Of a stretch of 64,000 bases of DNA, positions 17,477 to 32,829 are shown one piece after another. Positions within the stretch are counted from its first letter, which is position 1. The number at the start of each line of letters is the position of its first letter. Origin of the DNA: Shewanella pealeana ATCC 700345 (GTDB taxonomy: Bacteria > Pseudomonadota > Gammaproteobacteria > Enterobacterales > Shewanellaceae). The notes beneath the pieces are model-generated. The model did no database searches. It had not been told where the DNA came from and was given only the letters and a program-made list of their open reading frames with translations. The DNA lies in assembly GCF_000018285.1 (NCBI RefSeq), contig NC_009901.1, positions 1,425,001 to 1,489,000 of the forward strand, given 5' to 3'. A program made the translations under genes and the position numbers.

Positions 17477-17956
17477 ATGAAAATTAGAATTGGTCATGGC
17501 TTTGATGTTCACAAGTTTGGTGGCGAGCCACCACTTATTCTCGGTGGCATCACGGTGCCTTATGAGGTCGGTTTAATCGCACACTCTGATGGTGATGTGG
17601 TTTTGCATGCTATCTCGGATGCGATTCTTGGCGCGATGGCGCTTGGAGATATCGGTAAGCATTTTCCCGATACTGACCCCGACTTTAAGGGCGCCGATAG
17701 CCGAGTGCTATTGAGGCACTGCTATAAATTAGCGATGGATATGGGCTATAGCTTATCAAACCTTGATGTGACCGTAATTGCTCAAGCGCCTAAAATGGCG
17801 CCGCATATCGAAGCCATTCGCGCTGTGCTAGCCGAAGATTTGGCATCGGAGATTTGCGATATTAATGTTAAAGCGACCACCACCGAAAAATTAGGTTTTA
17901 CCGGCAGAAAAGAAGGCATTGCAGTAGAAGCTGTGGTGTTGATGATTAAATCATAA
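17477..17956 (+). CDS. ispF: 2-C-methyl-D-erythritol 2,4-cyclodiphosphate synthase IspF
   Basis: 159 residues, normal length. [11 protein letters not shown] carries the zinc-binding Asp and His; [19 protein letters not shown] and [11 protein letters not shown] are the family signatures; [17 protein letters not shown] is the nucleotide/substrate segment. It cyclises CDP-ME 2-phosphate with release of CMP. ATG 17477 follows AGGAACACCG. The last codons and stop (17944-17959) match the unit of a 16-bp tandem array that continues into the gap before truD. Confidence 0.96.
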
Positions 17957-18038
17957 TAAAGCTAAGCCATAACAAAGCTAAGTTATAAAAAGATTAAGTC
18001 ATAAAAAGATTAAGTCATAAAAAGATTAAGTCATAGTA
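17944..18038 (+). repeat. 16-bp tandem array growing from the ispF stop codon
   Basis: Six units with a 16-bp period (one of 15): GATTAAATCATAATAA, AGCTAAGCCATAACAA, AGCTAAGTTATAAAA, two identical copies of AGATTAAGTCATAAAA, and AGATTAAGTCATAGTA. The first contains the end of ispF (Ile-Lys-Ser-stop). Copies become more alike toward the 3' side, which fits recent slippage expansion. No protein or hairpin is evident. Confidence 0.85.
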
Positions 18039-18054
18039 AGAAGATAAACAGATT

Positions 18055-19119
18055 ATGAGCGAACTACATTATTTATACGGCAAGCCGACATCGACAGCCG
18101 ACCTGCGCACCCACAATAGTGACTTTCAGGTACAAGAAATTCTACCATTTGCCCCTACGGGTGAAGGTGAGCACCATTTACTGCATATTCGCAAAGAGGG
18201 ACTCAACACAGTTGAAGTGGCTAAAATGCTATCTGGCTTTGCTCATGTGCACCCGAAAGAGGTGACCTACGCAGGGCAAAAAGATAAGCACGCGATCACC
18301 GAGCAATGGTTTGGCGTACGTATTCCCGGAAAGGAAACACCAAACTGGGAGCAACTAAATAGCGAACAGATCACTGTACTTAGCTCCTCTAGACACAGTA
18401 AGAAGCTACGTATTGGTGCGTTGGCTGGTAATCGTTTTACCTTAACCTTGCGCAATGTCTCTGATATGAGTGATGTGGTTGCGCGCATTGAGAAGATTGG
18501 TGAGCAGGGTGTTCCAAACTACTTTGGTGAGCAGCGCTTTGGCCATGACGGCAAAAACCTTATATTTGGTCGTCAGATGTTTACAGGCCGTAAAGTGAAA
18601 GACAGAAACAAACGTAGTATGTATCTTTCTGCTGTGCGCTCAAATCTATTCAATATGGCTGTATCCACGCGTTTAGCCCAACATGGTACAGGCACTCTTA
18701 CTGGCGACTGTGTCATGCTTGCTGGGAGCAAGAGTTATTTTGTGGCTGAGCAGTGGGATGAAACTTTAGTCGAGCGTTTAGCTAAAAAAGACATACAACT
18801 GTCGGCGCCATTATGGGGACGTGGTTTACCGCTTGCACAAGCTGAGGCTGCCGAGTGTGAGGCGCAAGCGCTTGAATCACTTGCAACTGATAAAGATGGT
18901 TTAGAGCATGCGGGGCTTAGCCAAGAAAGACGCGCATTGTTACTTGAGCCACAACATCTGCAATATGAAGTAGACGAAGATACCATTATTCTAAAATTTG
19001 CATTACCATCAGGTTCTTATGCTACATCGGTACTACGAGAGTTATTTGTTTACCAGGATGTTCAGGAAGTCGCTCGAAAGCAGATGCTAGCCGCACAAAA
19101 TAGCGGCGAGGCACAATGA
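18055..19119 (+). CDS. truD: tRNA pseudouridine(13) synthase TruD
   Basis: 354 residues. The catalytic region [17 protein letters not shown] contains the TruD aspartate, and NYFGEQRFG is the second family signature; the C-terminal [17 protein letters not shown] is also typical. It makes pseudouridine at position 13 of tRNA-Glu. The first residues follow the usual NSDFQVQEI pattern. The TGA stop overlaps the surE start (ATGATG), indicating translational coupling. The 16-bp array just upstream may shift its promoter or ribosome access, but no clear site was seen there. Confidence 0.95.
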
Positions 19120-19868
19120 TGAAGATCCTTATCAGTAATGATGATGGAGTGAATGCGATAGGCATTGTTGCTCTGACTCGGTCTTTGAGCCAAATAGCAG
19201 AAACACTCACTGTCGGGCCTGATAGAAACTGCTCTGGTGCGAGTAACTCGTTAACCTTGACCAACCCGCTTCGACTCAATACCTTAGACAATGGTTTTAT
19301 CTCGGTAAGTGGTACACCGACCGACTGCGTTCATTTAGCCATACGAGAATTATATCAAGATGAGCCTGATATGGTGGTATCAGGTATTAATGCTGGGGCG
19401 AATATGGGCGATGATACCTTGTATTCAGGCACCGTAGCGGCGGCGATGGAAGGACGCTTTCTTGGTTTTCCTGCGATAGCTATTTCTTTGGTTGGCCATG
19501 AGCATTACGAAACTGCGGCTCATTATGCGTTAAAAATCGTTAAAGCCTTGCAGGATAACCCTGTTGCTCAGGATAAGATCTTGAACATCAATGTACCTGA
19601 CTTGCCATTGTCTGAAGTGAAAGGGATGAAAATCACTCGTCTCGGTGCAAGGCATAGAGCCGAAGGCATGGTGAGAACTCAAGATCCTGCCGGAAAAGAG
19701 ATTTTTTGGTTAGGACCACCGGGTGATGAACAAGACGCCAGTGATGGCACTGATTTTCACGCTGTCGCTAATGGTTATGTGTCTATCACTCCACTAACTG
19801 TTGATTTAACCGCTTTTGAGCAACTCAAGGCTCTGGATAATTGGTTAGCTAACATCAGTGAAAAATAG
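19116..19868 (+). CDS. surE: 5'/3'-nucleotidase SurE
   Basis: 250 residues if the first ATG at 19116 is used; the canonical [10 protein letters not shown] starts at 19119. The metal site is NDDG plus the downstream Ser/Asn (GASNSLTL and [25 protein letters not shown]), the full SurE signature. It removes phosphate from nucleoside monophosphates and is linked to stationary-phase survival; pcm follows as in E. coli. The end is odd: the last 20 codons (from [21 protein letters not shown]) are repeated three more times downstream as a tandem array, each with its own stop, so the current tail may not be the ancestral one. Confidence 0.96.
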
Positions 19869-20256
19869 TGATTATTCGTGGTTAATAGTGGTTTACAGTA
19901 GTTAGCCACTCGTCCGTTATATATCACGTGACGCTGAACTTAACCGCTTTTGAACAACTCAAGGCACTGGATAATTGGTTAGCTAACATCAGTGAACAAT
20001 ACTGATTATTCGTGGTTAATAGTGGTTTACAGTAGTTAGCCACTCGTCCGTTATATATCACGTGACGGTGAACTTAACCGCTTTTGAACAACTCAAGGCA
20101 CTGGATAATTGGTTAGCTAACATCAGTGAACAATACTGATTAATAGTGGTTTACAGTGGTTAGCCACTCGTCTGTTATGCATCTCGTGACGGCGGACCTA
20201 ACTGCTTTTGAACGGCTCAAGGCATTGGATAAGTGGTTAGCTAAGATCAGCGTTTA
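19807..20256 (+). repeat. tandem array of the surE 3' end (four copies, about 134 bp)
   Basis: The surE tail starting TAACCGCTTTTGA at 19807 recurs at 19941, 20075 and 20199 (spacing 134, 134, 124; the last unit lost 10 bp). Copies 2 and 3 still encode [21 protein letters not shown] plus stop in the surE frame; copy 4 encodes [19 protein letters not shown] plus stop. The linker (TTTACAGTAGTTAGCCACTC and beyond) is also repeated and partly resembles surE just upstream of the tail. No separate start codon or ribosome site serves copies 2-4, so they look like duplicated gene ends rather than genes. Confidence 0.92.
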
Positions 20257-20345
20257 ACTGTCGAGTGAAAACCTTTATAGATTGCCCTATAGAAACGGGC
20301 AATCGAAGCGTTAACAAATTTATTGAAATATTGGAAAAGAGATTT

Positions 20346-20981
20346 ATGAACCCTGTCGCCTCAACATCAGCATTGAACCTTGCAAGAAGTCTGTATGAGG
20401 CTGGGATCCGTAATGAAGCTGTATTGCGTGCGGTCGCAAATACTCCGAGGGAGCAGTTTCTTGAACCTGCACTTGGTCATAAAGCTTATGAGAATACTGC
20501 GCTGCCGATAGGGCAAGGTCAGACTATTTCTCAGCCTTATATCGTTGCCAGAATGACTGAAATTATCTTGCAGAATAAGCCAAGTAAAGTGCTTGAGATA
20601 GGTACGGGATCAGGCTATCAAGCTGCGGTTTTAGCACAGCTAGTTCCACAACTTTGCACGGTGGAACGAATTAAAAGTTTACAGATCCAGGCCAGACAGA
20701 GGCTTAAAAAGCTCGATTTACATAATGTCGCTTTCAAATATGGCGATGGTTGGCAAGGATGGCCAAGTAAAGGCCCTTACGACGCGATTATGGTGACTGC
20801 AGCTGCAAGTTCAGTTCCTGAAGCCTTAGTGGCGCAATTAGCTGACGGTGGTGTATTAGTCATTCCTGTTGGCGAGTTATCGCAACAGCTGTTGAAGCTT
20901 ACCCGAGTTGGCAATCAGTTTACCTCCGAGGTGATTGAGAATGTGCGCTTTGTGCCGCTAGTGAGTGGCGAGCTGGCATAG
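20346..20981 (+). CDS. pcm: protein-L-isoaspartate O-methyltransferase Pcm
   Basis: 211 residues from ATG 20346 ([16 protein letters not shown]), preceded by GGAAAAGAG. A GTG at 20265 would add 27 residues without family support. Signatures are [22 protein letters not shown] (substrate loop), [16 protein letters not shown] (SAM motif I), GDGWQGWP and the C-terminal [11 protein letters not shown], all closely matching E. coli Pcm. It methylates isoaspartyl residues to start repair of aged proteins. surE-pcm-nlpD-rpoS is a conserved stationary-phase cluster. Here the surE tail array separates surE from pcm, so any coupling between them is lost. Confidence 0.96.
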
Positions 20982-21068
20982 GCATTTTTACACGGGCTTA
21001 TCGAGCCAGCAATCAAGTAATAATTAAATAGTGTCGACAACAGGGTAATTTGGGGTGAAGAGTTAACA

Positions 21069-21959
21069 ATGAGGTTCGTTTACTATTATTGTGTCTACGT
21101 GGTGCTGCTTTCTGGCTGTAGTTTTCAGGCAGATAGACCTGCACCTGTAGAATCTATTAACGGTCCCCAAACTCCGTCGATCACCAAAGGATCGATTACA
21201 GGAAGTCGTTATATCGTAAAAAATGGTGATACTCTCTACTCTATCGCCTGGGGAGCAAATAAAGATTTTGTTGATATTGCAAAGCAAAATCGTCTGCCAA
21301 AGCCTTATACCATCTACCCTGGACAAGTATTGAGTCTTAGCTCTAAAAGATATGTTACAAATAGCCAAAGCGCCAAAAAAACGACGAATTCAAGCATTAA
21401 AACCACTGCCGTTAATAGTAATAATACACAAAAACAAGTGGTTAGTGCTAAACCATCTACCGTCTCCAGCCAGAATCAAGGGTCAAAAAAACAACTTGAT
21501 CCTGTCGCCAAGCCTGCGTACTCTGTAACAAGTAGTCAACAAGATGCTAACCGAATTATCCACAAGCCTGTCGAGCTTCCAAAGAAAGTAAGCCGCTGGT
21601 CATGGCCTGTGAAAGGTAAGGTGATTGGAACTTTCTCCGCCAAAGAGCAGGGAAATAAAGGGATAAAGATCGCAGGTAACCGAGGTGATGTGATTCGAGC
21701 TGCTGCAAGTGGTCGAGTCGTTTACGCTGGTAGTGCACTTCGGGGGTACGGTAACTTAGTTATCATTAAGCATAGTGATGATTATCTAAGTGCTTATGCT
21801 CATGCTGATAAGATCTCAGTTAAGGAAAAGCAACTTGTTAGTGTTGGACAGACAGTTGCGACAATGGGTAGTACTGGTACAAATCGGGTCATGTTACATT
21901 TTGAGATCCGATATCATGGAAAGTCAGTTAATCCTGTTAAATTTTTGCCTAAACAATAG
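21069..21959 (+). CDS. nlpD: murein hydrolase activator NlpD
   Basis: 296 residues. The signal peptide ends in a lipobox (VVLLSGC, Cys at 16), so this is a lipoprotein. A LysM peptidoglycan-binding domain follows (YIVKNGDTLYSIAW to YPGQVLSL, about 48-93), then a low-complexity Ser/Lys/Thr/Gln linker, then a degenerate M23/LytM domain (about 175-295; GRVVYAGSALRGYGNLVIIK, SAYAHADK, HFEIRYHGKSVNPV). The zinc-binding set is incomplete, as is usual for NlpD, which activates amidase AmiC at the septum rather than cutting itself. The rpoS promoter often lies inside nlpD; rpoS starts 76 bp on. Confidence 0.95.
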   Translation: MRFVYYYCVYVVLLSGCSFQADRPAPVESINGPQTPSITKGSITGSRYIVKNGDTLYSIAWGANKDFVDIAKQNRLPKPYTIYPGQVLSLSSKRYVTNSQSAKKTTNSSIKTTAVNSNNTQKQVVSAKPSTVSSQNQGSKKQLDPVAKPAYSVTSSQQDANRIIHKPVELPKKVSRWSWPVKGKVIGTFSAKEQGNKGIKIAGNRGDVIRAAASGRVVYAGSALRGYGNLVIIKHSDDYLSAYAHADKISVKEKQLVSVGQTVATMGSTGTNRVMLHFEIRYHGKSVNPVKFLPKQ

Positions 21960-22035
21960 TTGTTGGGCCGCCATTTTGGCAAATCGGAGGATAGTGAAGT
22001 GCAGTAATTTAATGTGAAAATTTGGGAGAAATATT

Positions 22036-23004
22036 ATGGGCAGATTAAATAGTGCCGTTGTTGCAGAGCAGCCAAAAAATGACTCTGTAAAAGATTCATC
22101 GAATACTCTTACTAAACAGGATGTGAAAGAAGCTGAATTAGAGCAGCAAGTGCAAGATGATTTACAAAAAAACTTAGATGCCACACAGCTGTATCTAGGT
22201 GAGATTGGATTTTCCCCTCTCCTCAGTGCCGAGGAAGAAGTGTATTTTTCACGTAAGTCCCTTAAAGGGTGTGAAAAATCTCGTAACCGTATGATTGAAA
22301 GTAACCTCAGATTAGTCGTAAAAATTGCACGTCGATATAATAATCGTGGCTTAGCGTTACTCGATCTTATCGAAGAGGGCAATTTAGGCCTTATCCGTGC
22401 AGTAGAGAAGTTCGATCCTGAGCGTGGCTTTAGATTTTCAACCTATGCAACATGGTGGATTAGACAGACGATTGAGCGAGCAATTATGAATCAGACTCGT
22501 ACCATTCGTTTACCCATCCATGTGGTAAAAGAGCTGAATGTTTATCTGCGTACCGCAAGAGAGCTAGCGCATAAATTAGATCACGAGCCTACGGCAGAAG
22601 AGATTGCAGATAAGCTAGATTTACCTAGTGCGGATGTAAGCCGTATGCTAAAGCTTAATGAAAGAATCACCTCTGTTGACACCCCCTTAGGTGGCGAAAG
22701 TGATAAAGCATTACTAGATGTGCTTGCCGATGATGATAACGTAGGGCCTGACTATAAGGTGCAGGACGAAGACATGTCCAAGTCTGTAGTCAAATGGTTA
22801 GATGAGCTTAATACCAAGCAAAGAGAAGTGTTAGCGCGCCGATTTGGTTTATTGGGCTACGAGCCATCTACGCTTGAAAACGTAGGTAAAGAAATTGGCT
22901 TAACCCGTGAAAGAGTTCGTCAAATTCAAGTCGAGGCTCTCAAGCGTCTGAAAGATTTACTGGGGGCACAAGGCCTTTCTGTTGAAGCCATTTTTAAAGC
23001 ATAA
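22036..23004 (+). CDS. rpoS: RNA polymerase sigma factor RpoS
   Basis: 322 residues. Region 1.2 ([21 protein letters not shown]), region 2 ([28 protein letters not shown] and [19 protein letters not shown]), region 3 ([20 protein letters not shown]) and region 4 ([20 protein letters not shown] followed by [10 protein letters not shown]) are all present. It is the general stress and stationary-phase sigma factor. The ATG 22036 follows GGGAGAAATATT. Its place after nlpD and opposite mutS is standard. The N-terminal 50 residues are charged and less conserved, as usual. Confidence 0.97.
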
Positions 23005-23046
23005 AATTAAAGCATAAAATACTGTCTCGTTCTGAGATAAATAAAA

Positions 23047-23077
23047 AGCGCAGTTGAAATCAACTGCGCTTTTTTTG
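23047..23077. terminator. bidirectional terminator between rpoS and mutS
   Basis: A perfect 10-bp stem AGCGCAGTTG / CAACTGCGCT with loop AAAT, A run on the left and T run on the right. It serves both convergent genes. Confidence 0.9.
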
Positions 23078-23116
23078 TGCCTATTGTCTAGTGCCCTAGA
23101 GGCTTAATCTTAAATG

Positions 23117-25696
23117 CTATAAAGCCAATTTTTTAAGATTATATAAGTAGTCCAGTGCTTGTCTTGGGGTCAACTCATCTGGGTTTAGCTTTTGTAGTGC
23201 TTCTACAGCTGGGGATGGAGCACTAGGCACAAAGCTCATGTTTTGCTGGGTACCTTGTTGTTCGGTATTTTGTTGTACATCGTGATCGCGGCTCTCAAGT
23301 TGATGTAACTTGTGTTTCGCTGCGCTGATGACACAATTTGGCACTCCTGCAAGTGCTGCTACCTGAAGGCCATAACTGCGGCTTGCTGCTCCCTCTTGAA
23401 CGGCATGCATAAATACTATGCTGTCACCATGTTCGACGGCATCAAGGTGCACATTTTCCACATTGCTAAGCTGTTCAGGTAGTTGTGTTAGCTCAAAGTA
23501 ATGAGTGGCAAACAGTGTCATTGCCTGTAACTGTTTAGCCAAATACTCGGCAGCAGACCATGCCAGAGATAGGCCGTCATAGGTCGAGGTTCCTCGGCCA
23601 ATCTCATCCATTAAAACTAAGCTGTTTGGCGTAGCGTTATGCAAGATGTTAGCGGTTTCAGTCATCTCAACCATAAAGGTTGAACGACCCGAGGCCAAGT
23701 CATCTGATGCACCAATACGGGTAAATATTCTGTCTACAGGGCCAATGACGGCCTGCTCTGCAGGGACATAACAACCGATATGAGCCATAAGGGTGATCAA
23801 GGCTACTTGACGCATATAGGTAGACTTACCGCCCATATTCGGACCTGTGACGATCAGCATCTTACGCTGGGCGTTTAAAGTTACCGGGTTGGCGATAAAT
23901 GGACTCTGGCTTACTTGTTCTACTACAGGGTGACGACCCGCCTCAATGTGAATACCTGATATGCTCGATAGTTCTGGGCAATGGTAATTAAGGCTCTCGG
24001 CTCGTTCGGCAAAGTTACATAATACATCTAGTTCGGCCGATGCTTGGGCGAAGTCTTGTAGTTCATGCAGCTTAGGCAATATAAGATCGAATAGCTGTTC
24101 CCATAACTGTTTCTCTAGCGCTAGGGCTCTGCCTTGGCTAGATAGCACTTTTTCCTCATGCTCTTTTAGCTCGGGAATGATATAGCGTTCGGTATTTTTC
24201 AGGGTTTGTCTGCGCTGATAGCTCAGTGGCACAAGATCAGACTCACGACGACTGACCTCGATATAGTAGCCATGGACTCGGTTGTAGCCGACTTTTAGTG
24301 TTGAAATTCCGGTTTGCTCTTTCTCTCGGGCTTCCAGTTCATGCAAGTAATCTGTGGCGCCTTCGCTCAACTTACGCCATTGATCTAGCTCTTCATTGTA
24401 GCCCTCGCGGATCACACCACCATCGCGAATAAGCATGGGTGGATTATCGACAACCGCACGCGAGAGTAGATCAACCTCCTCAGGGAACACACCAATCACT
24501 TGCGATAGGTATTTAAGGTGCGGCGCACTGGCGGCGCTTAGTGTTTGTTGTAGCTGAGGCAGTAAGGTCAGAGCTTGACGTAGGCGTGCAAAGTCTCTTG
24601 GGCGAGCATTACGCAGTGCAATACGTGCCGTAATGCGCTCTACATCTCCTAGGGCTTTCAGATCTTCTGATAGCGTCTCAAAGTCGCCAGTCATCATCAG
24701 TTCTGCTATCGATGCTTGTCTTGCTCGAATAATGTCATGATCGCGAAGAGGCTGGTGGATCCAGCGTTGCAGCATTCGGCTTCCCATAGGTGTAACGGTA
24801 TTGTCTAGCACTGAAGCTAGGGTGTTTTCGCGGCCGCCCTGCAGGTTTACCGTAAGCTCTAAATTACGGCGGGTCGCGGCATCGAGCACTATGCTGTCTG
24901 ACTGATTGAAGCGCACGATCGAGTTGATATGCGGCAGTGCTGTACGTTGGGTGTCTTTGACATACTGCATCAAGCAACCCGCAGCCTGTAAAGAAAGCCT
25001 CGCGTCTTCGATACCGAAGCCTTTTAGATCTTTAGTGCCAAATTGATTAAGCAGCATACGCTGACAGGTATCGTAATCGAACTCCCACTCGGGCCTGCGT
25101 CTTGTGCCATTCATACCCGCGATAAGACTCATCTGCGAGAAGTCTTCGCTATAGAGTAACTCGGCAGGGTTAGTACGTTGTAACTCAGCCTCTAAGGCTT
25201 CGGTATTGGCAAGCTCGGTGACAACAAAGCGTCCAGATGCGACATCTAAGGTTGCATAACCGTAACCCGTTTTGCCTTGGTAAAGCGCAGCAAGCAGGTT
25301 GTCTTGTCTCTCTTGCAGTAAGGCTTCGTCTGTTAATGTACCAGGGGTTACAATTCGTACGACCTTACGCTCAACCGGACCTTTTGAGGTCGCAGGATCG
25401 CCAACTTGCTCGCAAATCGCTACCGATACACGTAGCTGAACGAGCTTAGCTAAATAGCCTTCGACAGCGTGATAGGGGAGGCCTGCCATGGGGATCGGGT
25501 CTCCGCCACTTTTACCACGGGCCGTTAACGAGATCCCAAGTAGCTCAGATGCTTTTTTTGCATCTTCATAAAAGAGCTCATAAAAATCGCCCATGCGATA
25601 AAAGAGCAACATATCGGGATGCTGGGCTTTTAAGGTCAAATATTGACGCATCATAGGAGTGTGTTTTTCTAAGCTTTGGGGATCAATAGCGGTCAT
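23117..25696 (-). CDS. mutS: DNA mismatch repair protein MutS
   Basis: 859 residues. The mismatch-binding Phe-x-Glu lies in [15 protein letters not shown] (about 33-47). The connector and lever domains follow, then the ATPase with Walker [14 protein letters not shown], the Walker [13 protein letters not shown] and the family signature [14 protein letters not shown]. The C-terminal tail (about 800-859) ends in [19 protein letters not shown], the tetramer-forming helix region. It recognises mispairs and recruits MutL. It is transcribed toward rpoS and away from recA. Length and motifs are normal. Confidence 0.97.
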
Positions 25697-25888
25697 CGAT
25701 TTGTTTTGCCTGTCATTTACTGTGGCACCTTAAAGTGCCTTACACAATATTGGCTCTAATATTAACAATATTTTGCCCGGTTTAGGCGGAATTCTTACTG
25801 TGTTTCAGTAAAAAATTACTGTAGATAAATCCTCTTATCCTAGAAGTGTATGATTTATAGATATTTATAAAATATTTTTACACAGTAC

Positions 25889-25916
25889 TTGATACTGTAT
25901 GATTGTACAGTATACT
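25889..25916 (+). promoter_or_regulatory. recA SOS promoter with LexA box
   Basis: -35 TTGATA (25889-25894), 16-bp spacer, -10 TATACT (25911-25916). The spacer is a perfect LexA box, CTGTATGATTGTACAG (25895-25910; CTGT-N8-ACAG). The layout is nearly the same as the E. coli recA operator-promoter, so LexA would block the promoter directly. The rest of the 320-bp gap from mutS shows no gene; cinA, often found here in relatives, is absent. Confidence 0.92.
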
Positions 25917-26016
25917 AGTTTCATATTGAGGCTCTAGCCAAGGCAAATCGAGTCATCACCCAAATAATAAATCAGTACCGCAAACGTGTTTGCGCTGTGA
26001 TCCAGAGGATATAGGA

Positions 26017-27084
26017 ATGAAGATAGATCCAAATAAAGAGAAAGCATTGAACGCTGTACTTGGACAGATTGAGAAGCAGTTTGGTAAAGGCTCAATCATG
26101 AAGTTAGGTGAAGACCGTTCAATGGACGTAGAGACCATTTCTACTGGCTCATTAGCTTTGGACGTAGCTTTAGGCGCTGGCGGCTTACCTATGGGACGTA
26201 TCGTTGAGATCTATGGTCCAGAATCTTCAGGTAAAACTACCTTAACATTAGAAGTTATCGCTGCCGCTCAAAAGCAGGGTAAGACCTGTGCCTTTATCGA
26301 TGCTGAGCATGCTCTTGACCCTATCTACGCTAAAAAGCTAGGTGTTGATATCGATAACTTATTATGTTCACAGCCAGATACTGGTGAGCAGGCGCTTGAA
26401 ATCTGTGATGCACTAACTCGAAGCGGCGCCGTTGACGTTATCGTCGTCGACTCGGTTGCAGCATTGACACCAAAAGCGGAAATCGAAGGTGAAATCGGTG
26501 ACTCTCACATGGGCCTTGCGGCGCGTATGATGAGCCAAGCAATGCGTAAGCTTGCTGGTAACCTAAAGCAGTCAAATACACTTCTTATCTTCATTAACCA
26601 AATCCGTATGAAGATTGGTGTAATGTTCGGTAACCCAGAAACAACTACGGGTGGTAACGCACTTAAGTTCTATGCTTCTGTTCGTCTAGATATCCGCCGT
26701 ACAGGTGCGATTAAAGATCGAGAAGAGGTTATTGGTAACGAAACCCGCGTAAAAGTGGTTAAGAACAAGATTGCCGCACCATTTAAACAAGCTGAATTCC
26801 AAATCCTTTACGGTCAAGGCATCAACAGCACGGGTGAGTTGGTTGACCTTGGTGTACAGCACAAGTTAATTGAAAAGGCAGGTGCTTGGTACAGCTACAA
26901 AGGTGACAAGATCGGTCAAGGCCGTGCAAATGCCGGTAAGTATCTAATCGAAAACCCAGCAATTTCAGATGAAATTGAAACAACACTGCGCGCTATGCTT
27001 CTTGGCAACGGTGAGAAGGTGAGTGCAGATTCAGCTGACACCGCTGGCGATAACATCGATTTAGAGACTGGCGAAGTATTTTAA
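26017..27084 (+). CDS. recA: recombinase RecA
   Basis: 355 residues from ATG 26017 ([16 protein letters not shown]), preceded by AGAGGATATAGGA; an upstream in-frame start at 25990 is rejected. Walker A is GPESSGKTT, Walker B is [12 protein letters not shown], loop L1 is [20 protein letters not shown] and loop L2 is [21 protein letters not shown] followed by [11 protein letters not shown]. It forms filaments on single-stranded DNA, drives strand exchange and triggers LexA self-cleavage. Regulation by its LexA box is clear. The usual partner gene recX is not found downstream; a 431-bp gap with a long hairpin lies there. Confidence 0.98.
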
Positions 27085-27515
27085 GCTAGATAACAGATAA
27101 CTCAGTCTGTTGTCTGTGTCGCGGTTGCACTATGACTAATATAAGATGTACAACTTATATTAGTTAGCGCGCCGCGACTCTTCTCATAAGGAGCCTACAG
27201 CTCTCGTAAATAGACCTCTGTTCTTGTTAAGAAGCCAAGATCAAACCTTTCCGCTTATTCTTCCCTGTCAAACTTTCGTTATAGGATCATTGTTGTTAAA
27301 TGCCGTTGCAAGACTCATTTTCATCAGTTTCCGCCTGTAGTACGACTGTCTTTGAAAAGCTCCAATCGTGTTTTAACCTGTTAATTTCAGCTCCTCACGC
27401 AGTTTTGTATTAACAGGGCTGGTTGTTAGTCATGACTCTGCTTATAATGCTATCCATAAAAATTTATCACTCAGCTCTTTAGGGCTATTTGCACAATCTA
27501 ATTCAGGACGGTTTC
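27085..27515. other. recA-alaS gap with long imperfect hairpin; no recX
   Basis: The gap holds no open frame that resembles recX. A nested inverted repeat at 27118-27178 (GTCGCGG ... CCGCGAC outside, ACTAATATAAG / CTTATATTAGT inside, 8-nt loop) may end recA transcription, although no T run follows. A possible alaS -10 TATAAT is at 27443-27448 with a weak -35 (TTGTTA, short spacing). The remainder shows nothing I can name. Confidence 0.6.
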
Positions 27516-30143
27516 ATGTATCAAACCACTGCAGCACTGCGAAGTGCTTTTTTGGAATATTTCCGCACAAATGGTCACCAGGTAGTAGATAGCAGCTCTC
27601 TCGTTCCAGCGAACGATCCAACGCTACTATTTACTAATGCGGGTATGAACCAGTTTAAAGATGTGTTTTTGGGTGCAGATAAACGTAGCTATTCTCGTGC
27701 AACGTCTTCACAGCGCTGTGTTCGCGCGGGTGGTAAGCACAACGACTTAGATAACGTGGGCTACACAGCACGTCACCACACTTTCTTTGAAATGTTAGGT
27801 AACTTTAGCTTTGGTGATTATTTTAAAGAAGAAGCAATTCATTTCGCATGGACTTTCCTGACCGAAGAGTTGAAGCTACCGAAAGAACGCCTTTGTGTCA
27901 CCATCTATGACACAGACGACGAAGCATTTGAAATTTGGAATAAGAAAATTGGCGTAGCGGCGGAAAATATTATCCGTATTGGCGACAATAAAGGTGCTGC
28001 ATATGCGTCAGATAACTTCTGGCAAATGGGTGACACAGGTCCTTGTGGCCCATGTTCTGAAATCTTCTATGATCACGGTGATCATATCTGGGGCGGACGT
28101 CCTGGTACACCAGAAGAAGATGGCGACCGTTTCATCGAGATCTGGAACATCGTATTTATGCAGTATAACCGTCAAGCTGACGGTGAGATGAAGCCACTAC
28201 CAAAGCCATCTGTTGATACCGGTATGGGTATTGAGCGTATTGCTGCCATTATGCAGGGCGTACATTCAAACTACGAAATTGATATTTTCCAAGCTTTGAT
28301 CAAGAAGGCTGCAGCTATTCTTGGTGTAACGGATCTTGAGAACAAGTCATTACGTGTTATTGCCGATCACATTCGTTCATGTGCCTTCTTAATTGCCGAC
28401 GGTGTTATGCCATCAAATGAAGGCCGTGGTTATGTGCTTCGTCGTATAATTCGTCGTGCCGTTCGTCATGGTAACAAGCTAGGTGCTACTGAAAGTTTCT
28501 TCTACAAGCTGGTTCCAACATTAATTGAAGTGATGGGCGCCGATGCTGCAAAAGGCTTGCAAGAGACTCAAGCTATTGTTGAAAAGTCACTAAAAGCTGA
28601 AGAAGAACAATTCGCACGTACACTTGAACGTGGTCTAGGCATTTTAGATGCGGCGCTAAATGAGCTAGCAACTAATGTGTTAGATGGCGAAACAGCATTC
28701 AAGCTTTACGATACTTATGGCTTCCCAGTAGATTTAACTGCTGACGTTTGTCGTGAGCGTGATATCACGGTTGATGAAGCAGGATTTGAAGTTGCTATGG
28801 CAGCGCAGCGTAGCCGTGCACAAGCAGCTGGTCAATTCGAGACTGACTATAACGAAGGTCTTATAATTGATGAACAAAGCGGCTTTACTGGTTACACCGA
28901 TCTAAATAATCAAGCGACAGTGACAGCAATCTTTAAAGCGGGTGAGTCAGTTGATAGCATTGTTGCTGGTGATGACGTGGTTATCGTACTCGATAACACA
29001 CCGTTTTATGGTGAGTCAGGTGGTCAATGTGGCGATGAAGGTGTATTGATTGCCGATGGAATCGAGTTCACTGTGACTGATACACAAAAGTATGGTCAAG
29101 CGATTGGTCATATCGGTCGCGTAGCGACTGGTACAGTTAAAGTTGGCCAAGTGGTTACAGCGAATGTTGATAAGAAGCTTCGTCATAGAACCGAGCTAAA
29201 CCATTCAGTGACACACCTTTTACATGCAGCGCTTCGCCAAGTGTTAGGTACACACGTATCTCAGAAAGGTTCTTTGGTTGACCCAGAGCGTCTACGTTTC
29301 GACTTCTCTCATTTCGAAGGTGTTAAAGCTCACGAGCTTAAAGAAGTTGAAGAGCTAGTGAATACCCAAATTCGTCGTAACCACGAATTGACCGCTGAAG
29401 TGATGGATATAGAAACGGCCAAAGAAAAAGGTGCTATGGCACTGTTTGGTGAGAAGTATGATTCAGAAGTGCGTGTTGTGACTATGGGCGACTTCTCTAT
29501 CGAGCTTTGTGGGGGTACTCACGTTGGGCGTACTGGTGATATCGGTTTGTTCAAGATCACTTCAGAGGGCGGTATCGCTGCCGGCATACGTCGTATTGAA
29601 GCGGTAACAGGCGCAGCTGCGATGGCTTATGTTGCTAAGCAGCAAGCACAACTTGAAGAAGCGGCTGCATTACTGAAGGGCGATAGTGCTTCTGTGGTTG
29701 CTAAGCTTAAAGCACAGCTTGATAAGACTAAGTTACTTGAAAAAGAGCTATCTCAACTAAAAGACAAGTTGGCAGCTGCGACTAGCGCCGATCTTGCTGG
29801 CGAAGCTGTTGACGTGAATGGCGTTAAGGTTCTCGTTAAGAAACTTGAGGGTGTTGATGCTGGGGCTCTTCGTGGTCTACAGGATGAGCTCAAGCAAAAG
29901 CTGCAGTCAGGTATCGTAGTGCTAGCGATTGCCGGCGAAGATAAAGTTAATATGATCGTTGGTGTGACTAAAGATCTTACTGGTAAGGTTAAAGCGGGTG
30001 AGCTTGTAGCCTCTATAGCAGTACAAGTTGGCGGTAAAGGCGGTGGACGTCCTGATATGGCTCAAGCCGGTGGTAGCCAGCCTGAGAACCTAGACGCTGC
30101 TTTAGAGCAAGTTATTCCATGGATCTCTGCTAAGCTTGCATAA
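27516..30143 (+). CDS. alaS: alanyl-tRNA synthetase
   Basis: 875 residues from ATG 27516 ([16 protein letters not shown]), which follows CAGGACGG; a TTG at 27489 is rejected. The class II catalytic core has [20 protein letters not shown] and [17 protein letters not shown]. The editing domain carries zinc-type motifs [12 protein letters not shown] and the later CGGTH. The C-terminal oligomerisation (C-Ala) region is [20 protein letters not shown] onward with the glycine-rich [13 protein letters not shown]. It charges tRNA-Ala and clears mischarged Ser and Gly. The alaS-csrA order is conserved, but the aspartate kinase gene often placed between them in Shewanella is missing here. Confidence 0.97.
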
Positions 30144-30171
30144 TTGCTAGCGATAACGAGATATTAAGAAG

Positions 30172-30193
30172 CGCCCTTTAAGGGCGTTTTTTT
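30172..30193 (+). terminator. alaS terminator
   Basis: Stem CGCCCT / AGGGCG with loop TTA, followed by seven T residues. Confidence 0.85.
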
Positions 30194-30612
30194 ATGGCAT
30201 AAACAAAAATACTCTAGAGGGCAGGGGGAGTGGATTGAGGCTTTAGTTAACTTTATTACTATTCATCCAATGCTTTTACTGGCTAAAAGAGCAAGCGAAT
30301 GAGCAAATAGCTATTTATATAAATGTTGAATTGTTTGGTTAAAGTATCAGCAATGTGGCCTTTGGTTTGGGGAATGTGCGCTTTCATGTTAGTTTAATGT
30401 CAATGCTTGATAGTCGTACGACCGAGCAAAGATTAATCTTAATATGGCTAAAAAGGTTTCAGGTAGATAACTGTGATTTATTACTGAAAAAGCTGTAATT
30501 ATTTGACGCTTTTCTAATAGAAGACTGTTAATTTGTACTAAGCTAACCTTATAATACAGATATAACGGAATTATGCCGTATAAGCAGAACTAGGAACTAA
30601 AGGAGCAATGTA
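30194..30612. other. csrA upstream region with candidate promoter and CsrA-type GGA motifs
   Basis: No gene is seen in this 419-bp gap. A TATAAT lies at 30550-30555 with a weak -35 TTAATT (30528-30533, 16-bp spacer); a second candidate is TTGACG at 30503-30508 with TGTTAA 17 bp on. The leader has two GGA motifs (30593-30595 and 30602-30604), the second inside the AAAGGAG ribosome site, the pattern used by CsrA to block its own translation. A start-stop pair ATGTAA (30608-30613) overlaps the csrA ATG. Confidence 0.45.
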
Positions 30613-30810
30613 ATGCTGATATTGACTCGTCGTGTTGGTGAAACACTGATGATTGGTGACGAAGTAACTGTCACTGTATTAGGCGTTAAAGGTAACCAAG
30701 TAAGAATTGGTGTAAATGCACCTAAAGAAGTCTCTGTACATCGTGAAGAGATTTACCAACGCATTCAGTCTGAAAAGTCAGGTACCCCATCTGAAGGCGG
30801 TAACTTTTGA
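30613..30810 (+). CDS. csrA: carbon storage regulator CsrA
   Basis: 65 residues. [25 protein letters not shown] is the first RNA-binding strand and core; R44 in [10 protein letters not shown] is the second contact. It is an RNA-binding dimer that binds GGA motifs in leaders and blocks or stabilises mRNAs; BarA-UvrY small RNAs titrate it. Length is close to the 61 residues of E. coli. AAAGGAG sits 7 bases before ATG. The 3' half and the terminator are repeated three more times downstream as decaying copies, so csrA expression ends at a stack of terminators. Confidence 0.97.
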
Positions 30811-30838
30811 TCTGAATGGATCACTTAAGAATTTTAGA

Positions 30839-30862
30839 AGCCAGTTTTTAACTGGCTTTTTT
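30839..30862 (+). terminator. csrA terminator (array copy 1)
   Basis: A perfect 8-bp stem AGCCAGTT / AACTGGCT with loop TTT, followed by six T residues; this is the terminator of the intact csrA. Confidence 0.88.
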
Positions 30863-31061
30863 ATTTTCTGGCTTCTAGCTTCAAGGCTCTGTAGCTCACA
30901 GAGTTTAGACTTATATAAATGTACTACTCCAAAAGAAGTCTTCTTTAGTACAGGCTAGAGGCATTTACCCGCGCATTCTGTCTGAGAAAACAGCTCACCA
31001 GTCGATAATGGCTATTTTGATCTGAATGAGATCAGTTTGAGGCTATTGGTAAATATGTAGA

Positions 31062-31084
31062 AGCCAGTTAATAACTGGCTTTTT
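31062..31084 (+). terminator. duplicated csrA terminator (array copy 2)
   Basis: The same 8-bp stem with loop AAT, followed by TTTT. It is intact although the coding part before it has decayed. Confidence 0.8.
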
Positions 31085-31288
31085 ATTTTCTGGCTTCTGG
31101 CTTCTAGCTTCTAGGCTCTGTAGCTCACAGAGTTTAGACTTATGTAAATGTACTACTCTCAAAGAAGTCTTCTTTGTACAGGCTAAAGACATTTACTGCG
31201 CATTCAGTCTGAGAAAACAGCTCTCTAGTCGATAATGGTAATTTTGATCTGAATAAGACCAGTTTGAGGCTATTGGTAAATATGTAGA

Positions 31289-31312
31289 AGCCAGTTAATA
31301 ACTGGCTTTTTT
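31289..31312 (+). terminator. duplicated csrA terminator (array copy 3)
   Basis: The same 8-bp stem with loop AAT and six T residues. The fourth copy (about 31533-31557) has lost stem pairing. Confidence 0.8.
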
Positions 31313-31681
31313 ATTTTCAGGATTTGAAGCTTTGGGGAGAGGGCGCTAGGAGCTAAGTTAGTTTGACTCACTTTGCTCAAGTGAGTGTAAATGCGTCCAC
31401 TCCCAAGAAGGCGTCCTGTTCTGGGGAAAGGAATTAAGCCGCGTATTTAGCCTGAAAAATCAGCTAAGCCCGCAGGTGGCAGTAATTTTGATCTGAATGA
31501 GATCAGTTTTAGCCTTAATAGGTAAATAGCTGAAGCCAGTTTATAGCTAGGTTTTTTATATTTAGGGCTTATGAATTCCAAATGAAATGTCGAAATAAAC
31601 GCCTTTGAGCCGTAACTTAGACTGTTATACAGACAAGCTGCTTAAAAACAGCTCAAATGGAAATGGTTTCTTAAAAAGGGT

Positions 31682-31717
31682 TTGACTTATTTTCGGCAGA
31701 CAGTAATATGTGCGCCA
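31682..31717 (+). promoter_or_regulatory. tRNA cluster promoter with stringent-type discriminator
   Basis: -35 TTGACT (31682-31687), 16-bp spacer, -10 TAATAT (31704-31709), then a G/C-rich discriminator GTGCGCC. Such discriminators mark promoters repressed by ppGpp in enterics. It lies just before the first tRNA-Ser. Confidence 0.7.
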
Positions 31718-31723
31718 AGAAAC

Positions 31724-31815
31724 GGAGAGGTGGCCGAGTGGCCGAAGGCGCTCCCCTGCTAAGGGAGTATGGGCTTTAACTCCCATCGAGGGTTCGAATC
31801 CCTCCTTCTCCGCCA
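31724..31815 (+). tRNA. tRNA-Ser(GCT)
   Basis: 92 nt with encoded CCA. Acceptor stem GGAGAGG / CTTCTCC, anticodon loop CTGCTAA (GCT), long class II variable arm (TATGGGCTTTAACTCCCATC) and T arm GGGTTCGAATCCC. It reads AGY serine codons. First gene of the cluster. Confidence 0.95.
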
Positions 31816-31836
31816 TTTCTTACAATAGACAACGAT

Positions 31837-31913
31837 GCGGATGTAGCTCAGCTGGATAGAGTACCTGGCTACGAACCAGGCGGTCGGAGGTTCGAATCCT
31901 CCCATCCGCACCA
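31837..31913 (+). tRNA. tRNA-Arg(ACG) copy 1
   Basis: 77 nt with CCA. Acceptor GCGGATG / CATCCGC, D arm GCTCAGCTGGATAGAGT, anticodon loop CTACGAA (ACG, wobble A to be converted to inosine), T arm GGAGGTTCGAATCCTCC. It closely resembles E. coli tRNA-Arg(ACG). Confidence 0.96.
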
Positions 31914-31943
31914 TTTCTATTGTCGTGATAAATGTTTTAGTGA

Positions 31944-32020
31944 GCGGATGTAGCTCAGCTGGATAGAGTACCTGGCTACGAACCAGGCGGTCGGAGGTTC
32001 GAATCCTCCCATCCGCACCA
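31944..32020 (+). tRNA. tRNA-Arg(ACG) copy 2
   Basis: Identical over 77 nt to copy 1, including the GCGGATG acceptor. Confidence 0.96.
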
Positions 32021-32052
32021 TTAAATCATTTATAGCAGTAAGCATTCTATAT

Positions 32053-32129
32053 GCGGATGTAGCTCAGCTGGATAGAGTACCTGGCTACGAACCAGGCGGT
32101 CGGAGGTTCGAATCCTCCCATCCGCACCA
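32053..32129 (+). tRNA. tRNA-Arg(ACG) copy 3
   Basis: Identical over 77 nt to copy 1. It is flanked by CATTCTAT and ATAGAATG, which could pair and extend the acceptor stem in the precursor. Confidence 0.96.
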
Positions 32130-32159
32130 TAGAATGAAAGAATTTAAGATTTTATATGA

Positions 32160-32236
32160 GCGGATGTAGCTCAGCTGGATAGAGTACCTGGCTACGAACC
32201 AGGCGGTCGGAGGTTCGAATCCTCCCATCCGCACCA
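32160..32236 (+). tRNA. tRNA-Arg(ACG) copy 4 (first of duplicated block)
   Basis: Identical over 77 nt to copy 1. Flanks TTTTATATG and CATATAAAA are complementary. It starts the block repeated at 32524. Confidence 0.96.
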
Positions 32237-32269
32237 TATAAAACGATTGATTTAAGTAGTACCAATTTT

Positions 32270-32346
32270 GCGCGTGTAGCTCAGCTGGATAGAGTACCTG
32301 GCTACGAACCAGGCGGTCGGAGGTTCGAATCCTCCCACGCGCACCA
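32270..32346 (+). tRNA. tRNA-Arg(ACG) copy 5, variant acceptor stem
   Basis: Same body and ACG anticodon, but the acceptor stem is GCGCGTG / CACGCGC in place of GCGGATG / CATCCGC. Both sides changed together, so pairing is kept. Confidence 0.95.
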
Positions 32347-32355
32347 TGTATTGAC

Positions 32356-32447
32356 GGAGAGGTGGCCGAGTGGCCGAAGGCGCTCCCCTGCTAAGGGAGT
32401 ATGGGCTTTAACTCCCATCGAGGGTTCGAATCCCTCCTTCTCCGCCA
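32356..32447 (+). tRNA. tRNA-Ser(GCT) copy 2
   Basis: Identical over 92 nt to the first tRNA-Ser of the cluster. It ends the first duplicated block and is followed by a terminator. Confidence 0.95.
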
Positions 32448-32460
32448 TCATTCGAACAAA

Positions 32461-32485
32461 AACCGCAACACTGTTGCGGTTTTTT
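32461..32485 (+). terminator. terminator inside the tRNA cluster
   Basis: Perfect 9-bp stem AACCGCAAC / GTTGCGGTT with loop ACT and a T run. It would separate the last three tRNAs unless read through or served by another promoter. Confidence 0.82.
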
Positions 32486-32523
32486 GTCCTCAGAATGATT
32501 GTGATGTTTTAAGTTTTATATGA

Positions 32524-32600
32524 GCGGATGTAGCTCAGCTGGATAGAGTACCTGGCTACGAACCAGGCGGTCGGAGGTTCGAATCCTCCCATCCGCACCA
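32524..32600 (+). tRNA. tRNA-Arg(ACG) copy 6 (first of second block)
   Basis: Identical over 77 nt to copy 1, again flanked by TTTTATATG and CATATAAAA. It is 364 bp after copy 4. Confidence 0.96.
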
Positions 32601-32635
32601 TATAAAACAGATTAGATTTAGATTGTACCGAGTTT

Positions 32636-32712
32636 GCGCGTGTAGCTCAGCTGGATAGAGTACCTGGCTACGAACCAGGCGGTCGGAGGTTCGAATCCTC
32701 CCACGCGCACCA
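32636..32712 (+). tRNA. tRNA-Arg(ACG) copy 7, variant acceptor stem
   Basis: Same sequence as the variant at 32270 (GCGCGTG / CACGCGC acceptor), 366 bp after it. Confidence 0.95.
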
Positions 32713-32721
32713 TGTTTTGCC

Positions 32722-32813
32722 GGAGAGGTGGCCGAGTGGCCGAAGGCGCTCCCCTGCTAAGGGAGTATGGGCTTTAACTCCCATCGAGGGTTCGAATCCC
32801 TCCTTCTCCGCCA
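32722..32813 (+). tRNA. tRNA-Ser(GCT) copy 3
   Basis: Identical over 92 nt to the other two tRNA-Ser(GCT) genes, 366 bp after the second. Last gene of the cluster. Confidence 0.95.
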
Positions 32814-32829
32814 TTCATACCATACAAAA

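Follow-up and report, generated by a model that had tools for sequence, protein, structure and literature searches.

We find that surE and csrA of Shewanella pealeana share a single phenomenon, in which an intact gene is followed by tandem copies of its own 3' tail together with a spacer and, at csrA, a terminator, and that such tail copies are concentrated in one Shewanella clade. The differences between the tail copies and their genes are mainly synonymous. On the sequence comparisons presented here, these arrays probably began as tandem duplications of gene tails, which then underwent unequal exchange as well as gene conversion with the gene itself.

The window, that is, the whole 64,000-bp stretch analysed here, covers positions 1425001-1489000 of the single-contig, 5,174,581-bp S. 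pealeana genome, and Tandem Repeats Finder (TRF) places arrays at 17944-18035 (16 bp x 5.8), 19806-20250 (134 bp x 3.4) and 30866-31318 (227 bp x 2.0) (Table 1). An earlier note on this DNA had described repeats running from the 3' ends of ispF, surE and csrA into the gaps behind them, with each gene left whole; TRF and a repeat search confirm these repeats, and all three genes score above their TIGR cut-offs. The further suggestion that one phenomenon operates at all three genes holds for surE and csrA and fails for ispF, where a minisatellite overlaps 13 bases of the gene, stop codon counted. A short motif of the same kind lies behind ispF in L001-L004 with differing copy numbers (by eye), and we therefore place the ispF array in a class other than the tail arrays. 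The 366-bp duplication reported among the tRNA genes is likewise present, with blocks 32236-32448 and 32602-32814 offset by this distance in the repeat search; it repeats whole tRNA genes, and is an ordinary duplication separate from the tail arrays.

Table 1. Features of the ispF, surE, csrA and tRNA regions, in window coordinates.
Feature	Position	Strand	Description and basis
ispF	17477..17956	+	Intact; TIGR00151 above cut-off
16-bp minisatellite, 5.8 copies	17944..18035	+	TRF; overlaps last 13 bases of ispF, stop counted (17944-17956), remainder in gap
surE	19116..19868	+	Intact; repeated tail derives from last 63 bp; TIGR00087 above cut-off
surE unit 1	19806..19939	+	Last 63 bp of surE itself plus 71-bp spacer from the gap; TRF, repeat search
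surE unit 2	19940..20073	+	Tail copy plus spacer; 96% identity to unit 1; repeat search
surE unit 3	20074..20198	+	Tail copy plus spacer, shortened by deletion; repeat search and genome search
surE tail copy 4	20199..20250	+	85% identity, without spacer; repeat search and relatives
csrA	30613..30810	+	Intact; TIGR00202 above cut-off
csrA terminator-like hairpin and T run	30838..30867	+	Sequence; repeated copies in repeat search
Two 227-bp csrA units	30866..31318	+	Diverged csrA tail (best at ~30929-30988 and 31143-31215) plus terminator; TRF, local alignments
Decayed third csrA-type unit	31319..31569	+	Terminator-like end; remains at 31482-31569 in repeat search; genome search
Ten tRNA genes (Ser, Arg)	31724..32813	+	366-bp block duplication of whole genes

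Three tail copies lie downstream of surE, the successive starts being 134, 134 and 124 bp apart. The csrA copies are diverged, with a best local score of 52 compared to a maximum of 23 over 20 shuffles, and terminator-like hairpins repeat along with the csrA units in the repeat search. A search of the entire 5,174,581-bp genome returns four matches to the surE unit, all at surE, and four to the csrA unit, every one at csrA, which rules out a dispersed repeat family of the REP-like or MITE kind.

The spacing between surE and pcm is at most 10 bp in 47/61 Shewanella loci, and the larger gap is found in the 14 closest relatives (L001-L014), none of which, as read by eye, shows a surE-tail array like that of the window. 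L009 carries a decayed surE-tail copy followed by sequence resembling the 3' flank of the window's last copy, and a short repeat peculiar to L004 surrounds the stop there (both by eye). Copies of the csrA tail scoring at least 36 are found behind csrA in 7 of the 14 closest loci (L001, L002, L003, L004, L005, L007 and L009) and at that score in none of L006, L008 and L010-L014, with a decayed remnant visible by eye in L008. A search of 117 Shewanella genomes finds multiple csrA-tail matches (2 to 8, at E <=1e-6) in 8, or in 9 with S. pealeana added by hand, its copies being too diverged for the query used; one genome is without any match. Selection for tail-terminator units as small RNAs, or for termination or mRNA stability, would be compatible with the hairpins that recur in the csrA units and with arrays that last across many species, but we consider it quite improbable given that copy number and sequence are free to vary, that the surE units sit between genes that abut in most of the Shewanella loci just described, and that Rfam matches in the window are to tRNA only, with 0 matches to covariance models (RtT or other) at E up to 1 in 30500-31720. 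Copying from mRNA 3' ends by reverse transcription, a candidate since units often end near terminators, is not favoured, as the csrA units continue past the terminator and the surE units are without a clear one (by eye).

In a genome-wide scan, the final 200 bp of every gene were aligned with the gap behind it and the initial 200 bp with the gap ahead of it, using at most 700 bp of gaps with a minimum length of 60 bp and a match threshold of score >=46; genes were called by a simple, home-made codon-usage caller, and those at stretch ends were skipped. Sixty stretches of S. pealeana give matches in 5/619 3' gaps and 2/627 5' gaps, and the window alone gives 2/34 and 0/34. The corresponding counts are 4/171 and 0/191 in the relative G053, where one of the four is csrA in a stretch picked for csrA, and, for two other Shewanella, 1/197 and 0/203 in G085 and 0/206 and 0/204 in G042. 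Pooling S. pealeana and G053, with the window and the picked csrA case excluded, yields 8/789 3' versus 2/818 5' gaps (one-sided Fisher p = 0.048), a comparison in which both 5' matches are counted, though the one in L096 (nagB by eye) is probably a start called too early. The same 8/789 compares with 1/403 3' gaps in G085 and G042 (p = 0.14 with every match kept), the single match there being a transposase-like gene of G085, and the contrast reaches p = 0.037 once this match is dropped. That gene (L207:13043-14032, below the cut-off to REP-associated transposase) has its 3' part repeated ~280 bp downstream. Shuffled gaps give 0.0 expected matches at score >=36 (first 40 stretches and the window), and the 80 relatives' loci give 1/793 3' and 0/791 5' gaps; these loci contain the same genes and hence are not independent, and csrA was skipped wherever it stood last in a locus, as it often did. 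We conclude that gene-tail copying is genuine, at ~1% of 3' gaps, with a modest 3' excess and a modest clade contrast in the scan. The proposal in the earlier note of a process copying gene ends in place genome-wide is thus borne out as to recurrence, with an excess of limited size. That note would have abandoned the idea had there been no 3' excess or had each case belonged to a separate known repeat family; for surE and csrA we find neither.

Inspection of individual loci yields further cases. A trpG/pabA-type gene of S. pealeana has a 144-bp array of 4.2 copies spanning its 3' end (L126:2437-3061), which was missed by the main scan because genes at stretch ends were skipped. A mirror case at a 5' end is an RND efflux-pump gene whose start is copied twice upstream (L164:15070 and upstream, S. 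pealeana, by eye), and a tRNA counterpart consists of decayed repeat units behind a tRNA-Met gene, all of which contain a terminator-like hairpin (L120:19194-19748, S. pealeana). In G053, an ssnA-type gene has near-identical 136-bp tail units with a strong hairpin in every spacer (L182:3694-4109), and a 155-bp tandem array with many short palindromes begins 6 bp behind a called gene (L183:2240-2524). Array genes do not differ from others in the strength of the hairpins behind their stop codons (11 vs 813 genes, p = 0.30), and loss of the hairpin-nuclease subunit SbcD is ruled out by matches over the cut-off in 26/26 genomes. Tail arrays may also break draft assemblies, as csrA-tail matches are split over contigs C3 and C19 in G077 and peptidase-tail matches over C11 and C26 in G004.

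Four other gene families permit a closer comparison of copies with genes. A peptidase gene, whose best named match is the Xaa-Pro dipeptidase PepQ at a score far below the PepQ cut-off, has 18 tail copies in 11/14 close genomes, each unit comprising ~120 bp of tail and a hairpin-bearing spacer (matches are 165 bp apart in G096); genus-wide, 80 of 114 genomes have a match and 13 of those 80 more than one. An SDR gene has 12 tail copies in 8/14 genomes, and a radical-SAM gene has a clear array in 1/14 and weak matches in two; the fourth family is purD. Fifteen of the 18 peptidase copies are nearest their own genome's gene, the other three being nearer another genome's gene, and 9/12 SDR copies are nearest their own. 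Six genomes have in common an older peptidase copy type with a ~12-bp insertion (by eye), so that some copies are probably older than the six species; taken with the 15/18, this suggests continued homogenisation.

Where an integrative element has inserted, the gene is left whole and a tail that differs from its own by synonymous changes stands behind it. Scars of elements whose attachment sites are gene 3' ends, and which carry their own version of the tail, would thus be expected to look much like these arrays, and most peptidase copies do start at one position in the gene, the more distant G111 included. We nevertheless regard this origin as very improbable, since the first peptidase copies lie only ~6-100 bp behind the gene, the peptidase gaps that were read contain short spacers and neither an integrase nor an element, and the units are gene-specific.

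Third codon positions account for 240/354 mismatches between a gene tail and its own copies over the four families (peptidase 136/174, SDR 56/110, purD 28/42, radical-SAM 20/28), in a count that includes non-independent copies within arrays and ignores gapped positions. Free decay predicts a third, and decay combined with synonymous change in the gene ~44% by a rough estimate; much of the difference therefore seems to stem from working alleles. Such alleles might be scars of gene replacement, if a fragment from a related strain replaced the gene by homology on one side and an illegitimate join downstream, leaving the old tail behind the new one, with the array growing later; illegitimate joining and duplication are discussed in the context of transformation (PMC3784515). 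The third-position bias would fit such an origin, as would the three peptidase copies nearer another genome's gene and the single radical-SAM copy of G053, which is 14% off its gene with 14/20 mismatches at third positions and has a comparable copy in none of the others of the 14-genome set. The purD gene of S. pealeana points the same way: it ends in ARENNED, but ARENGEG, the ending in 11/13 relatives (the other two relatives end in ARENS), is found in two of the three copies behind it. We find this explanation unlikely, however, as the peptidase and SDR copies are mostly nearest their own gene, the unit starts are identical across many species, and the G053 radical-SAM copy is no nearer to relatives than the gene is and so is not simply the native tail. 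Behind purD in G059 (L249), a series of ~seven short purD-tail units alternates irregularly between two kinds, A and B (by eye).

Exchange with the living gene would be expected to leave the tail of that gene out of step with its body. In the peptidase, the last three 120-bp segments match the rest of the gene on the nearest genome in 4/14 cases each, compared to 7-12 in the other 16 segments, with mean identity in the last three unchanged and the loss of agreement over the nearest relative confined to the last ~180 bp. The G088 peptidase gives an individual case: G077 is the nearest genome for the gene body and for the downstream copy but not for the gene tail, from which we infer that this tail has been exchanged. 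The SDR gene shows a weaker tail drop (6, 7 and 6 of 14 vs 7-10), and agreement in the purD tail is low (5, 4, 6) but equally low elsewhere in the gene and thus not tail-specific. No tail drop in nearest-genome agreement is found for the radical-SAM gene (12/14), for surE, truD, pcm, nlpD, rpoS and recA (12-13/15) or for ispF (9/15 vs 5-9 elsewhere in the gene). The contrast is blurred when rank correlation is used, with the last segment also low in surE (0.36) and truD (0.31).

We favour tandem duplication with subsequent exchange because the units are local, the csrA-tail copy number ranges from 2 to 8 among relatives and the copies resemble their own gene; the case is weakened by the modest 3' excess (p = 0.048) and clade contrast (p = 0.14) and by a tail-only disagreement that is clear in one gene only. 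By this mechanism, a segment from ~50-140 bp inside the gene to beyond the stop codon, and often beyond the terminator, would be duplicated in tandem, presumably by replication slippage or template switching, leaving the gene whole and the extra copy as a promoterless tail. Unequal exchange would then raise and lower the copy number, and gene conversion, both from copy to copy and between copies and the tail of the gene, would keep the array similar to the gene within a species, a form of concerted evolution. Conversion could also replace the tail of the living gene, including with alleles typical of other species, such divergent alleles probably being brought in from outside the cell. Copies of 5' ends may be rarer through removal by selection: a copied tail would be silent, while a copied head would carry a start codon and might part the promoter from the gene, so that the 3' excess may reflect selection. 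Older tail copies (L267, L268, L270, L271, L273, L276 and the csrA and purD arrays) contain small insertions, absent from the gene, that make short perfect hairpins, as quasipalindrome correction would give (by eye). These insertions hint at template switching and resemble hairpin-associated template-switch mutation as presented in PMC8794818, a process that alone leaves the long tandem units unexplained.

The earlier note knew of no named element behaving in this way, a view that must be revised in light of the 178-bp repeats of E. coli tyrT/tyrV. The last 19 bases of tyrV occur in three exact copies at 178-bp spacing in the E. coli sequence, in a region annotated rttR/tpr, and this is the closest precedent, since there as at surE and csrA an intact gene has its 3' tail repeated downstream in tandem. 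The E. coli case involves a tRNA gene, a 19-base tail and one locus, whereas the Shewanella arrays involve protein genes, tails of ~50-140 bases, many loci and species, and apparent exchange with the gene. The pilS/pilE system of Neisseria (PMC3899283) is similar in that partial gene copies exchange sequence with a whole gene, as the Shewanella copies appear to do, but the exchange described there alters the protein for antigenic variation; the Shewanella arrays follow housekeeping genes, and with 240/354 differences at third codon positions they do not behave as silent cassettes that change the protein. Titles and abstracts, in a search covering few subscription journals, include nothing that seems to describe such tail arrays. 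To the picture in the earlier note, the present analysis adds the concentration in one Shewanella clade, together with signs that the copies exchange sequence with the living gene.

If this reading is correct, short partial duplications in bacteria may persist across species, homogenised with their gene, rather than simply decay, and the end of a gene would be uncoupled from its body and able to evolve out of step with it. Gene trees, gene-end annotation and recombination estimates could be misled as a result. We raise with considerable doubt the broader idea that tail renewal continues in this clade, in which case the arrays would form a standing pool of alternative 3' ends, most of them synonymous, from which the tails of housekeeping genes would be overwritten again and again, even between species, making gene ends a separate evolutionary compartment. 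The clade would offer natural replicates of differing copy number, in which ideas on how sequence near 3' ends is duplicated and converted could be tested.
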